This document shows positions 4,419 to 61,121 of a DNA stretch of 64,000 bases, piece by piece. The position numbers were made by a program, and so were the translations under genes. This DNA is from an uncultured bacterium. Lineage in GTDB: Bacteria; Cyanobacteriota; Vampirovibrionia; Gastranaerophilales; Gastranaerophilaceae. Each line of letters begins with the position of its first letter. Position 1 is the stretch's first letter. The notes under the pieces were generated by a model. That model was not told where the DNA came from. It worked only from the letters and a program-made list of their open reading frames with translations, and did no database searches. The stretch is taken from assembly GCA_902766105.1 (NCBI GenBank), contig CACXCI010000032.1, positions 1 to 64,000 on the forward strand, in the 5' to 3' direction.

Positions 4419-4515
4419 ATAGCACCCCTCCTAGCCTCCACCCACACAGAAGAACAATATACTACTCCTCCCCTATGGGGGAGGTTGTGTGGGGAACTAT
4501 TGCTCTAAATATTCA
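4419..4515. repeat. palindromic element of the DUF559-linked family
   Basis: Starts ATAGCACCCCTCCTAGCCTCC and ends GGGGGAGGTTGTGTGGGG-AACTAT, so the ends are imperfect inverted repeats. Just past the end lies CTATTGCTCTAAATATTC, identical (in this orientation) to the last codons of the DUF559 gene at 9106, so a trace of that gene's 3' end is attached. Part of the 4322-4719 gap, where no gene is seen. Confidence 0.65.
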
Positions 4516-9024: not shown

Positions 9025-9105
9025 ATAGCACCCCACCCAGTCTCCCCCTCCACAGAAGAAGAACAATATACTACTCCTCCCCTATGGGGGAGGTTGGGTG
9101 GGGAA
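9025..9105. repeat. palindromic element at 3' end of DUF559 gene
   Basis: ATAGCACCCCACCCAGTCTCCCCC at the left and GGGGGAGGTTGGGTGGGG-AACTAT at the right are near-perfect inverted ends about 80 bp apart. The right end runs directly into the DUF559 stop codon, so element and gene share a boundary. Confidence 0.7.
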
Positions 9106-9447
9106 CTATTGCTCTAAATATTCTACAATCTTATTATATACACTCTCAATATTGTTATCTATTTCATTATTCCAAAATCTTATTACGTTAAATCCTCGTG
9201 ATTCTATATATTTAGTTCTCTGATTATCATATTTTATATTTTCAAATTCATTATGTTGACCACCATCAATTTCAATTACTAAATTTTTAGAACGACACAC
9301 AAAATCTACAATATAATCTCCAATAGGGTACTGTCGTCTAAATCTACAATTATTAATTTGATTATTTCGTAAATAATACCACAGTTTCTTTTCTTGAGGA
9401 GTCATATTATTACGTAGTTTTCGAGCTTTTATGTATTTTTCATCCAT
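9106..9447 (-). CDS. DUF559 (Vsr-like endonuclease fold) protein, copy A
   Basis: 113 aa. RRQYPIGDYIVDFVC (38-51) and VIEIDGGQH (57-65) give the D...ExDGGQH core of the PD-(D/E)XK-type DUF559 domain, related to very-short-patch-repair endonucleases. RFWNNEI closes the domain. About 55 percent identical by eye to copy B at 25752. Both copies lie between short palindromic elements, and the last five codons plus the stop (EYLEQ) recur at 4497 and 9591 next to other copies of the element. No partner methylase adjoins this copy. Either a DNA repair nuclease or, as the repeats suggest, the enzyme of a small mobile unit. Confidence 0.85.
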   Translation of the reverse strand: MDEKYIKARKLRNNMTPQEKKLWYYLRNNQINNCRFRRQYPIGDYIVDFVCRSKNLVIEIDGGQHNEFENIKYDNQRTKYIESRGFNVIRFWNNEIDNNIESVYNKIVEYLEQ

Positions 9448-9467
9448 AATTTATTGATATCATAAAA

Positions 9468-9590
9468 ATAGCACCCCTCCTAGCCTCCCCCTCAGGGGAG
9501 GAACAATGATACACACCTCTACTAGCCTCCCTCCCCACAGAAGAACAACATCATACGACTCCTCCCCTATGGGGGAGGTTGGGTGGGGAA
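9468..9590. repeat. palindromic element pair upstream of DUF559 copy A
   Basis: ATAGCACCCCTCCTAGCCTCCCCC with the hairpin CCTCCCCCTCAGGGGAGG, followed by a second unit (ACTAGCCTCCCTCCCC ... CTCCCCTATGGGGGAGG) ending GGGTGGGG-AACTAT. Same family as 4419-4515 and 9025-9105. The DUF559 gene is therefore bracketed by related elements in the same orientation. Confidence 0.65.
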
Positions 9591-9644
9591 CTATTGCTCT
9601 AAATATTCTACAATCAGATACTGTCGACTAAACCTGCAATATTA
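9591..9644 (-). pseudogene. decayed DUF559 remnant
   Basis: CTATTGCTCTAAATATTCTACAATC here equals the 3' end of DUF559 copy A (9106-9130). It then jumps to AGATACTGTCGACTAAACCTGCAAT, which matches the copy A stretch near 9327-9352 (GGTACTGTCGTCTAAATCTACAAT). About 200 bp of the gene is missing between the two parts. It runs up to the stop of the phosphopantetheinyl transferase gene. Confidence 0.6.
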
Positions 9645-10163
9645 TAATTTTATAATCTCAAAATCAGAAACCATACACTCATCTGACACAACAGTCAACA
9701 TATATTCATTTTCCAAAGAGCAAGAAAAATATGATTTTGGTTCAACCCCAAGTTTTATTTGAGCTTCATATTTTGTCCAAAATCTGTAGAAACTTTCTTT
9801 TGTCGGGTTTTCTAACGATTTGTGATAATGAGTTAAAATTTTGGCAAAATCTCTTTCTGTCATATATTCAACATCAGCGCCAAGATTATTATTTCCAAAA
9901 ACAACAAGCACTATATCTTTAGAATGGGATAAACTGAAATATAAATCTTTATTCTTAAATACAGGTTTTTTATCATTTAAGATTATTTCCGTATCGGATA
10001 AATTATAGTATTTCTCGGCAATATATTTTATCAGATATAACCCGCATAAATGCTCAATATATTTTTCTTCACATTTATATTTTCTGCCGTCTGAAACCTT
10101 TTCCAGCTCATCTCTGGAAATTTCGGATAAAAATTCACTTTTTCTTATATAAAAAACTTTCAT
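9642..10163 (-). CDS. 4'-phosphopantetheinyl transferase, Sfp-like, short
   Basis: 173 aa, smaller than classic Sfp (about 224). It transfers 4'-phosphopantetheine from CoA to a serine of acyl or peptidyl carrier proteins. Conserved parts: KKPVFKNKDLYFSLSHS (SLSHS at 77-81), the metal-binding D97 and E99 in GADVE, and FYRFWTKYEA (W129-E133), the WTxKEA equivalent with Tyr in place of Lys. Last gene of an operon: its ATG is 2 nt after the LdpA stop. No carrier protein or synthase gene is nearby, so the target is probably fatty-acid ACP. The stop lies at the edge of a repeat insertion, so the 3' end may have been trimmed. Confidence 0.8.
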   Translation of the reverse strand: MKVFYIRKSEFLSEISRDELEKVSDGRKYKCEEKYIEHLCGLYLIKYIAEKYYNLSDTEIILNDKKPVFKNKDLYFSLSHSKDIVLVVFGNNNLGADVEYMTERDFAKILTHYHKSLENPTKESFYRFWTKYEAQIKLGVEPKSYFSCSLENEYMLTVVSDECMVSDFEIIKL

Positions 10164-25580: not shown

Positions 25581-25724
25581 ACCTCAACCCAGCCTTCTCC
25601 TACTCTTTAGGAGAAGGGGTACAACATTTCCCCCTCCTAATTTTCAGTATTTCTATTGCCTCTCCTAAATCTCGGCATTTCTTTGTTCCCTCTCCTAATT
25701 CTAGGAGAGGGTTAGGGTGAGGTT
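25581..25724. repeat. CCTCACCC-type element, left copy beside DUF559 copy B
   Basis: Left end ACCTCAACCCAGCCTTCTCC and right end GGAGAGGGTTAGGGTGAGGT are imperfect inverted repeats. Inside are CCTACTCTTTAGGAG and CTCCTAATTCTAGGAG hairpins. A copy in the same orientation lies on the other side of the DUF559 gene (26101-26216), so the gene is flanked by direct repeats. Confidence 0.75.
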
Positions 25725-25751
25725 AAAATTACATTATGATAAAATAAGAAT

Positions 25752-26096
25752 ATGAAAGAAAAATATATCAAAGCAAGAGAGTTAAGACACAACACAACAC
25801 CGCAAGAACAAAAACTATGGAATTTGCTGAAAAACCGTCAATTTAAAGGTATTAAATTTGTAAGGCAATACCCTATCGGGAGCTATATTGTCGATTTTGC
25901 ATGCAGAAAAGAAAAAGTAATAATTGAAATAGACGGTGGTCAACACAAGATTGATAGCAACATTATTTATGACAATAAAAGAACTGAATACCTTAATTCA
26001 AGAGGTTATAAAGTCTATAGATTTTGGAATAATGAAATTGATGCAAACATTGAAGGAGTTTATGAAAAATTGCTTAGTATATTTAATTTATTATAA
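25752..26096 (+). CDS. DUF559 (Vsr-like endonuclease fold) protein, copy B
   Basis: 114 aa. Same blocks as copy A: MKEKYIKARELRHNTTPQEQKLW, FVRQYPIGSYIVDFAC and VIIEIDGGQH, then RGYKVYRFWNNEID. The catalytic-type residues (D of VDF, E and D of EIDGGQH) are intact. Only 27 bp separate the left repeat from the ATG, and 4 bp separate the stop from the right repeat, so gene plus repeats look like one unit of about 640 bp. There is a DNA methylase gene on the far side of the right repeat. Nuclease of a mobile unit or a repair enzyme. Confidence 0.85.
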   Translation: MKEKYIKARELRHNTTPQEQKLWNLLKNRQFKGIKFVRQYPIGSYIVDFACRKEKVIIEIDGGQHKIDSNIIYDNKRTEYLNSRGYKVYRFWNNEIDANIEGVYEKLLSIFNLL

Positions 26097-26100
26097 TCAT

Positions 26101-26216
26101 ACCTCAACCCAACCTTCTCCTACTCTTTAGGAGAAGGAGTTTAACATTTCCCTCTCGTAATTCTCGGCATTTCTTTGTTCCCTCTCCTAATTCTAGGAGA
26201 GGGTTAGGGTGAGGTT
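26101..26216. repeat. CCTCACCC-type element, right copy beside DUF559 copy B
   Basis: ACCTCAACCCAACCTTCTCC ... GGAGAGGGTTAGGGTGAGGT, nearly identical to the left copy and in the same orientation but about 28 bp shorter in the middle. It begins 4 bp after the DUF559 stop. Confidence 0.75.
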
Positions 26217-38442: not shown

Positions 38443-38964
38443 ATGTCAAATTTTAAGAGATATTATCAAGACAACAATATTGTTTTTATTACTATTGTCA
38501 CGTACAATCGACAACCAATATTAGTTGATAATATTGATTTATTGCGTAATTCATTGAAATCAGTTAAATATAATTATAAAATTATTGCAGGAATTGTCAT
38601 GCCTGATCATATACACATTTTGATACAAACTGACAAAACTAATAATTATTCAAAAATAATTGCATCATTTAAAGCGAATTTTTCTAAACACCTGCCACTA
38701 AATAAAAACCAAACAAACTCTCAACTTGTAAGACGTGAAAAAGGTATTTGGCAAAGAAAATACTATGACCATATTATAAGAGATGAAAATGATTTTAATA
38801 AACATCTTGATTATATACATTATAACCCAATGAAGCATTTGAATATATACCCAAAAGATTGGGAATTTTCTTCTTTCATTAAATTTGTAAAACAAGGATT
38901 TTATCAGGAAAACTGGTGCAATTTTGATGACAAAAACAATATTTTAAATATGGATTTGGAATAA
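38443..38964 (+). CDS. REP-associated tyrosine transposase (RAYT, Y1/IS200-like)
   Basis: 173 aa single-domain HUH nuclease. ITIVTYNRQPIL starts the fold, the metal-binding HUH motif is PDHIHIL (H56, H58), and GIWQRKYYDHIIRDENDF followed by YIHYNPMKH is the RAYT signature with the catalytic Tyr on the second helix. RAYTs cut and join single-stranded REP hairpins and are thought to spread them. Here the gene is bracketed by REP hairpins with an 8-bp stem: one at 38406 and three in a 55-bp tandem array at 38978-39105. More copies lie at 1.6-1.8 kb. Intact. Confidence 0.93.
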   Translation: MSNFKRYYQDNNIVFITIVTYNRQPILVDNIDLLRNSLKSVKYNYKIIAGIVMPDHIHILIQTDKTNNYSKIIASFKANFSKHLPLNKNQTNSQLVRREKGIWQRKYYDHIIRDENDFNKHLDYIHYNPMKHLNIYPKDWEFSSFIKFVKQGFYQENWCNFDDKNNILNMDLE

Positions 38965-60835: not shown

Positions 60836-61121
60836 TCTCCCCTGAGGGGGAGATAAAGAGGGGTGCTACCTCTATTTTTATGAAATAAATTGTTCCCCAC
60901 CTAGCCTCCCCCATCGGGGAGGAACAAATTTTGTCATTCTGAGGCTTTAGCCGAAGAATCTCAAAAACTCTCAAGTTAATGAGATCTTTCGCTTCGCTCA
61001 AGATGACTGGTAAAACTTATTATGTTGAGCAATAACTGATGCGTCGTTTTGATGTGCTGTCAAAAACTTGATAATATAAATCGTTCCCCAGCTAACCTCC
61101 CCCATCGGGGAGGAACAAAAA
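60836..61121. repeat. cluster of palindromic elements after rpoD
   Basis: Holds three CTCCCCC-type hairpins (60836-60868 with CTCCCCCTGAGGGGGAG; 60891-60927 and 61082-61121 with CCTCCCCCATCGGGGAGG) of the DUF559-linked family. It also holds one diverged GTCATTCTGAG element (60933-60943 with CTCAAGATGAC at 60997-61007). No gene is seen in 60808-61150; a 63-aa frame at 61049 runs through a repeat and is not credible. Confidence 0.7.

Follow-up and report, generated by a model that had tools for sequence, protein, structure and literature searches.

A DUF559 gene and its palindromic end repeats form a small mobile unit in a Gastranaerophilaceae bacterium and its relatives

Does a small DUF559 gene lying between inverted palindromic sequences in a Gastranaerophilaceae genome belong to a mobile unit and, if so, what moves it? 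The gene, copy A, occupies 9106–9447 on the minus strand of the 64,000-nucleotide stretch of DNA analysed here (the window) and encodes a 113-residue protein assigned to the nucleases of Vsr/EDxHD fold by Pfam (PF04480, 139.7 bits, E 4e-41), AlphaFold2 and Foldseek. The local order is hairpin, tail, gene, inverted tail, hairpin. On the 3′ side of the gene (9074–9105, plus strand) the hairpin CCTCCCCTATGGGGGAGG is followed by a G-rich tail, TTGGGTGGGGAA, which directly adjoins the stop codon; on the 5′ side (9470–9504) the tail CACCCCTCCTAGCC and the hairpin CTCCCCCTCAGGGGAGG repeat this arrangement in inverted orientation. DNA folding gave −8.2 kcal/mol (z −2.3) for the 3′-side hairpin and −8.0 kcal/mol for its 5′-side counterpart. 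The CCTCCCCTATGGGGGAGG palindrome is perfect at 4467, 9076 and 9561 and present as a variant at 9484, with 11 matches on both strands against 0.02 expected from shuffled sequences. The last codons and stop of copy A, CTATTGCTCTAAATATTC, occur exactly at 4497, 9106 and 9591 (0.18 expected from shuffles), which bears out the initial annotation's claim of further copies of the gene's 3′ end at 4497 and 9591. A chance origin of the repeats was ruled out by these shuffles together with control spans elsewhere in the same loci.

The limits of the unit were set by comparison with the nearest relatives of copy A, four loci (L244, L247, L274 and L277) whose proteins are 76–82% identical to it and which share no flanks with it. 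DNA homology with L277, L244 and L274, as delimited by Blast, begins at −56/−60 and ends at +372, counted from the start codon; for L247 the extent is slightly different, −33 to +379. Alignment of the ends across copies thus places the stops at the palindromes, and this sharp loss of homology at unrelated sites is our main evidence that hairpins and gene travel as one piece. The minimal mobile unit so defined, unit A, covers 9075–9507 (∼433 bp). The mobile unit originally proposed for 9025–9644 is therefore upheld, with limits that are tighter, at about 9075–9507, when drawn from non-syntenic homology. The 3′ end of unit A is at the same time part of a REPIN-like doublet at 9029–9105, of which 9029–9072 is the outer arm, beyond the unit; a 102-nt query from this region matches 9029–9130, 9524–9615 and 4423–4514. 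One of the four relatives, L274, has 43 nt of the left end repeat duplicated in tandem upstream of its DUF559 gene, an arrangement resembling BIME arrays.

The other two matches of the 102-nt query correspond to derivatives of the unit. At 4423–4514, a gene-less copy consists of the doublet and the last 18 nt of the copy A gene. A second doublet (9517–9590) lies beside a decayed sibling gene on the minus strand (9591–9645), in which the last 25 nt of copy A are fused to an internal segment that lies far from them in the intact gene: window positions 9603–9659 match nucleotides 208–263 of the copy A gene region at 75% identity over 57 bp (E 9e-9). The early reading of this segment as an internally deleted, non-autonomous sibling is in this way supported, and further gene-less copies and scars were found, among them a REPIN of A-like type at 60837–60922 with the layout hairpin-tail, ∼40 nt, tail-hairpin. 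The bracketing is a property of every stand-alone DUF559 gene in the source genome: there are three, two of them within the window, and all three lie between inverted hairpin-plus-tail repeats of REPIN-like layout, although the repeat sequences of copies B and C differ from those of copy A. Copy B (25752–26096, plus strand; 114 residues; PF04480, 135.7 bits) is preceded by a left doublet at 25582–25725, with the form CCTCAACCCAGCC-hairpin ... hairpin-GGTTAGGGTGAGG and a hairpin z of −3.5, and followed by a right doublet at 26102–26216. Its repeat type has 80 matches genome-wide, many places being counted on both strands. Copy C is on another contig (C71).

We then asked where such units reside and whether sites lacking them exist. 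The genus copies, 73 in number, fall into 51 contexts, contexts being defined by synteny on both sides; the genomes, apparently metagenome assemblies, may lack some genes. The gap between the PPTase gene and glmU that accommodates copy A measures 695 bp here as against 26–58 bp, free of repeats, in 15 relatives, and at the site of copy C the genes dprA and topA adjoin each other in most relatives. A third empty site comes from two genomes, G015 and G002, whose flanks are 97–98% identical. Where G015 has hairpin-tail-gene-tail-hairpin, G002 has a single palindrome, whose left half corresponds to one of the two and whose right half corresponds to its partner. This difference represents a gain or a loss at the palindromes and, from the two sequences, can be read as an insertion or as a deletion. 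Adjoining the DUF559 unit in G015 is a 600-bp stretch (L203, contig C39, 690–1290) with an ORF of ∼170 residues that is missing from G002. At the filled and empty sites inspected we recognized no convincing duplication of the target, one of the signs that the initial annotation had named for checking, and no clear consensus among targets. A search for movement between strains at the ycjD (DUF559) locus of E. coli gave no clean case. The locus is variable, 3364 of 5426 genomes holding most of an 851-bp query, but the four ycjD-lacking sapF–fabI loci that we fetched (among L373–L378) all carry an efflux transporter operon beside sapF. We therefore did not accept ycjD as a clear-cut empty site at strain level, the efflux operon in its place indicating replacement.

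Copy A itself is intergenic. In its relatives within the genus, however, the whole unit is also found within host genes with the reading frame open throughout. In an M14-type peptidase gene the unit is present in 11 genomes with both halves of the host readable, compared with ∼31 uninterrupted genes, and the M14-resident copies, 13 in total, all sit at one position; in PrmA the unit is present in 4 cases against 39 uninterrupted. Several of these in-frame units contain no ATG, GTG or TTG codon in the stretch that leads from the left repeat to the nuclease core, so that the nuclease can be made there solely as part of a fusion with the host protein. In the nuclease tree the PrmA-resident copies nest with the M14-resident copies (support 99/87), which implies a jump from one gene to another. 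Outside the lineage, in-frame copies were found in LeuRS, a RecB-like helicase, a SpoIID/LytB-domain protein, a helicase and an epimerase. The LeuRS with DUF559 inside it still scores 613 bits against TIGR00396, above the cut-off, and the assembly that contains it has two overlapping partial leuS genes. An epimerase-type ORF from Bacteroidales (L133, 1693–3519) seemingly contains several separate in-frame translated repeats as well as the DUF559 domain.

At the position of the unit, six uninterrupted M14 genes (L314, L315, L317, L320, L321 and L323) have either a lone in-frame palindrome or a doublet without the gene, and in L317, L321 and L323 a single palindrome lies exactly at the unit position. 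Such alleles, like that of G002, are what would be expected if DUF559 were a true homing endonuclease that targets the repeat and converts repeats to the gene-bearing state, the repeats themselves spreading by other means; the single position shared by the thirteen M14 residents and the closest characterized fold, that of the homing endonuclease I-Bth0305I, fit this explanation as well. Yet the copy A site is free of repeats in 15 relatives, and the M14 residents look ancestral in the tree, so that the single palindromes there may be scars of loss. Nor is there a sign of the usual housing. Homing endonucleases of the EDxHD type are often found in a group I intron or an intein, whereas Rfam gave no match in six unit-bearing loci and the two host fusions examined with Pfam (M14 and PrmA) contain only the host domain, DUF559 and its relative MTES_1575, with no intein domain. 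We rejected intron or intein housing, which has neither Rfam nor Pfam support, and consider homing of this kind unlikely.

To determine how far the arrangement extends beyond the genus, we scanned genome contigs for homology with copy A as query, taking taxa from record titles. Loci were recovered from Gastranaerophilales, Bacteroidota groups, Alpha-, Beta- and Gammaproteobacteria, Ignavibacteria, Planctomycetota, Doudnabacteria and Bacillota, and a plasmid collection added loci from Deinococcus, Azospirillum, Neisseria, Picosynechococcus and E. coli. Bracketing was scored as the inverted repeat across the DUF559 span, with flanks defined from the domain, relative to spans of the same length elsewhere in the same loci. 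By this measure 55 of 68 genus loci and 62 of 78 loci of the contig-scan set, two sets that may overlap in some genomes, exceeded the 99th percentile of the controls (p about 1e-42). Bracketing repeats were undetected around some small DUF559 genes (for example L114, L134 and L138), suggesting that part of the family may serve another purpose.

The encoded protein has the features of a probable nuclease. The AlphaFold2 model of copy A (pLDDT 90.2) retrieved with Foldseek first 3hrl, a solved DUF559 protein, then I-Bth0305I (3r3p, E 4e-5) and, more weakly, Vsr (1vsr); a sequence profile of copy A likewise finds 3hrl and 3r3p (E 1e-5 for the latter). Residues D48, E59, D61, H65 and D74 show no variation among 36 diverse sequences, those residing in frame included, the active-site motif is intact in 70 of the 73 genus copies, and dN/dS lies mostly between 0.05 and 0.35 (1.4 was obtained for a single pair that differs by very few changes). 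The intact motif and low dN/dS indicate that the protein is under selection, probably as a nuclease. No transposase domain was detected in copy A, Pfam returning DUF559 and MTES_1575 only. In a cyanobacterial study, a DUF559 gene is grouped with the EDxHD homing endonucleases (PMC9403480), and a report on VsrA, a DUF559 protein of Caulobacter studied as Vsr-like, ties it to a cytosine methyltransferase and DNA damage (PMC12907096). Within the titles and abstracts of the literature covered, which is open access with few subscription journals, we found no published link of DUF559 to bracketing repeats or mobility.

The Caulobacter work, together with the presence of E. coli ycjD at one locus in the genomes listed, would be compatible with DUF559 being a domesticated, Vsr-like host gene for repair or defence, the hairpins around it serving as terminators or marking hot spots that collect repeats. 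Terminators are unexpected inside reading frames, however, and the in-frame insertions are hairpin-bracketed too; moreover, the unit ends are homologous at unrelated sites, and the repeats are missing from the surroundings of other genes in these loci. Domestication is for these reasons very improbable as an explanation of the unit.

A more searching question is whether the nuclease or another enzyme moves the repeats. RAYT genes (PF01797) are present in 21 of 46 genus genomes, and the source genome is one of them: a RAYT-like Y1 transposase gene (45 bits) lies at 38488–38823 on the plus strand of the window, and repeats of GTAG type, GTAGGTCGGCG...CGCCGAC, occur in the same genome, so that two hairpin-repeat systems coexist there. 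In genome G005, a RAYT gene with GTAG repeats (L206, contig C30) fills the dprA–topA site that unit C occupies in the source genome. DUF559 could accordingly be a passenger, cargo caught between two repeats in the style of a composite element and mobilized by RAYT. After correction, repeat number still shows a partial correlation with RAYT, and the four genus genomes that have RAYT and no stand-alone DUF559 gene contain 3, 6, 20 and 21 repeats.

Several observations nevertheless argue against a passenger role. Cargo should vary, whereas a single gene family is bracketed across phyla. The RAYT repeats here have the GTAG tag and a different sequence. Repeat type follows nuclease lineage: among non-syntenic pairs only, nuclease and repeat divergence are correlated (Spearman 0.35, a value reached by none of 1000 permutations), the median flank score being 28.5 for pairs above 70% identity and 10.5 for pairs at 40–50%. 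Repeat counts point in the same direction, with a median of 10 in genomes with a DUF559 gene and 3 in genomes without (p 0.0024); the 17 genomes that have DUF559 and lack RAYT also have a median of 10, compared with 1 where neither gene is present (p 0.0016). A reversed-pattern control of these counts was uninformative, since reversal yields a pattern close to that of the repeat. Elements and DUF559 genes hence do not vary independently, the outcome that would have told against the initial annotation; they co-diversify, and the repeats are more numerous where the gene is present. We regard the passenger explanation as improbable, although the partial correlation and the two RAYT-only genomes with ∼20 repeats mean that RAYT may have a helper role.

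Taken together, many sites, palindromic ends, empty sites, remnants and lineage-linked repeats confirm the feature as a bounded mobile unit. As to mechanism, we think it likely that this ∼433-bp unit, with a DUF559 nuclease as its sole gene and hairpin-plus-tail ends, is moved by its own nuclease, which would also mobilize the gene-less repeats. In such a scheme the nuclease would recognize the end repeats of its unit, extruded as hairpins from single strands or as cruciforms, and would nick or cut at the repeats or at repeat-like sites, the break then being filled by repair or replication that copies the unit or a gene-less doublet. Recombination between both palindromes would lead to loss of the unit and leave one palindrome behind. 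DUF559 would thus stand to these repeats as the RAYT transposase stands to GTAG repeats, but with an active site of the homing-endonuclease type.

Most likely the unit works like REPIN–RAYT or homing elements while being neither. It shares with the REPIN–RAYT system, or REPtron, a single gene between inverted hairpin repeats, scattered doublets and singlets that lack the gene, and the want of a recognizable target duplication here, but its gene encodes a nuclease of PD-(D/E)XK/EDxHD fold in place of an IS200/IS605-type Y1 HUH transposase, the ends of unit A have a G-rich tail where the RAYT-associated repeats of the genus have GTAG, and it is found in frame within host genes. With I-Bth0305I (3r3p) and other EDxHD homing endonucleases it has in common the fold, the invariant acidic and histidine residues and the behaviour of a selfish gene; it differs in being free of intron and intein, hairpin-bracketed and present at many sites, and the 113 residues of copy A include no added DNA-binding region. 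Vsr, NGO0050 (3hrl), YcjD and Caulobacter VsrA belong to the same family or fold as copy A but are described as putative repair nucleases or as proteins of unknown function. The Rickettsia palindromic elements (RPE), which one report gives as ∼150 bp encoding a short peptide (PMC10969869), likewise lie in frame within protein genes, as relatives of copy A do, whereas the DUF559 unit encodes a complete nuclease domain. Unlike a classical insertion sequence, the unit has no transposase domain and no clear target-site duplication at the sites inspected, and unlike an intein it has no protein-splicing domain around the nuclease in the M14 and PrmA fusions.

DUF559, an unstudied family, thus probably drives a widespread small mobile element. 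More tentatively, and with slightly less than even confidence, we propose that DUF559 defines a separate class of element spanning phyla, consisting of autonomous hairpin-ended units of ∼430 bp that are moved by a homing-endonuclease-like nuclease and have no transposase, intron or intein. Many of the G-rich-tailed palindromes dispersed in bacteria would then descend from it as non-autonomous forms, and in-frame units would yield the nuclease solely as part of a fusion. Since DUF559 is widespread, of unknown function and structurally solved, the idea is directly testable. Palindromic repeats of the CCCTCTCC...GGAGAGGGTTAGGGTGAGG type are scattered over many bacterial genomes, and the DUF559 gene is their travelling companion. 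A 430-bp unit with one 113-residue nuclease would undercut typical insertion sequences in size, and its in-frame residence in metabolic genes would be a way for selfish DNA to supply proteins with additional domains.
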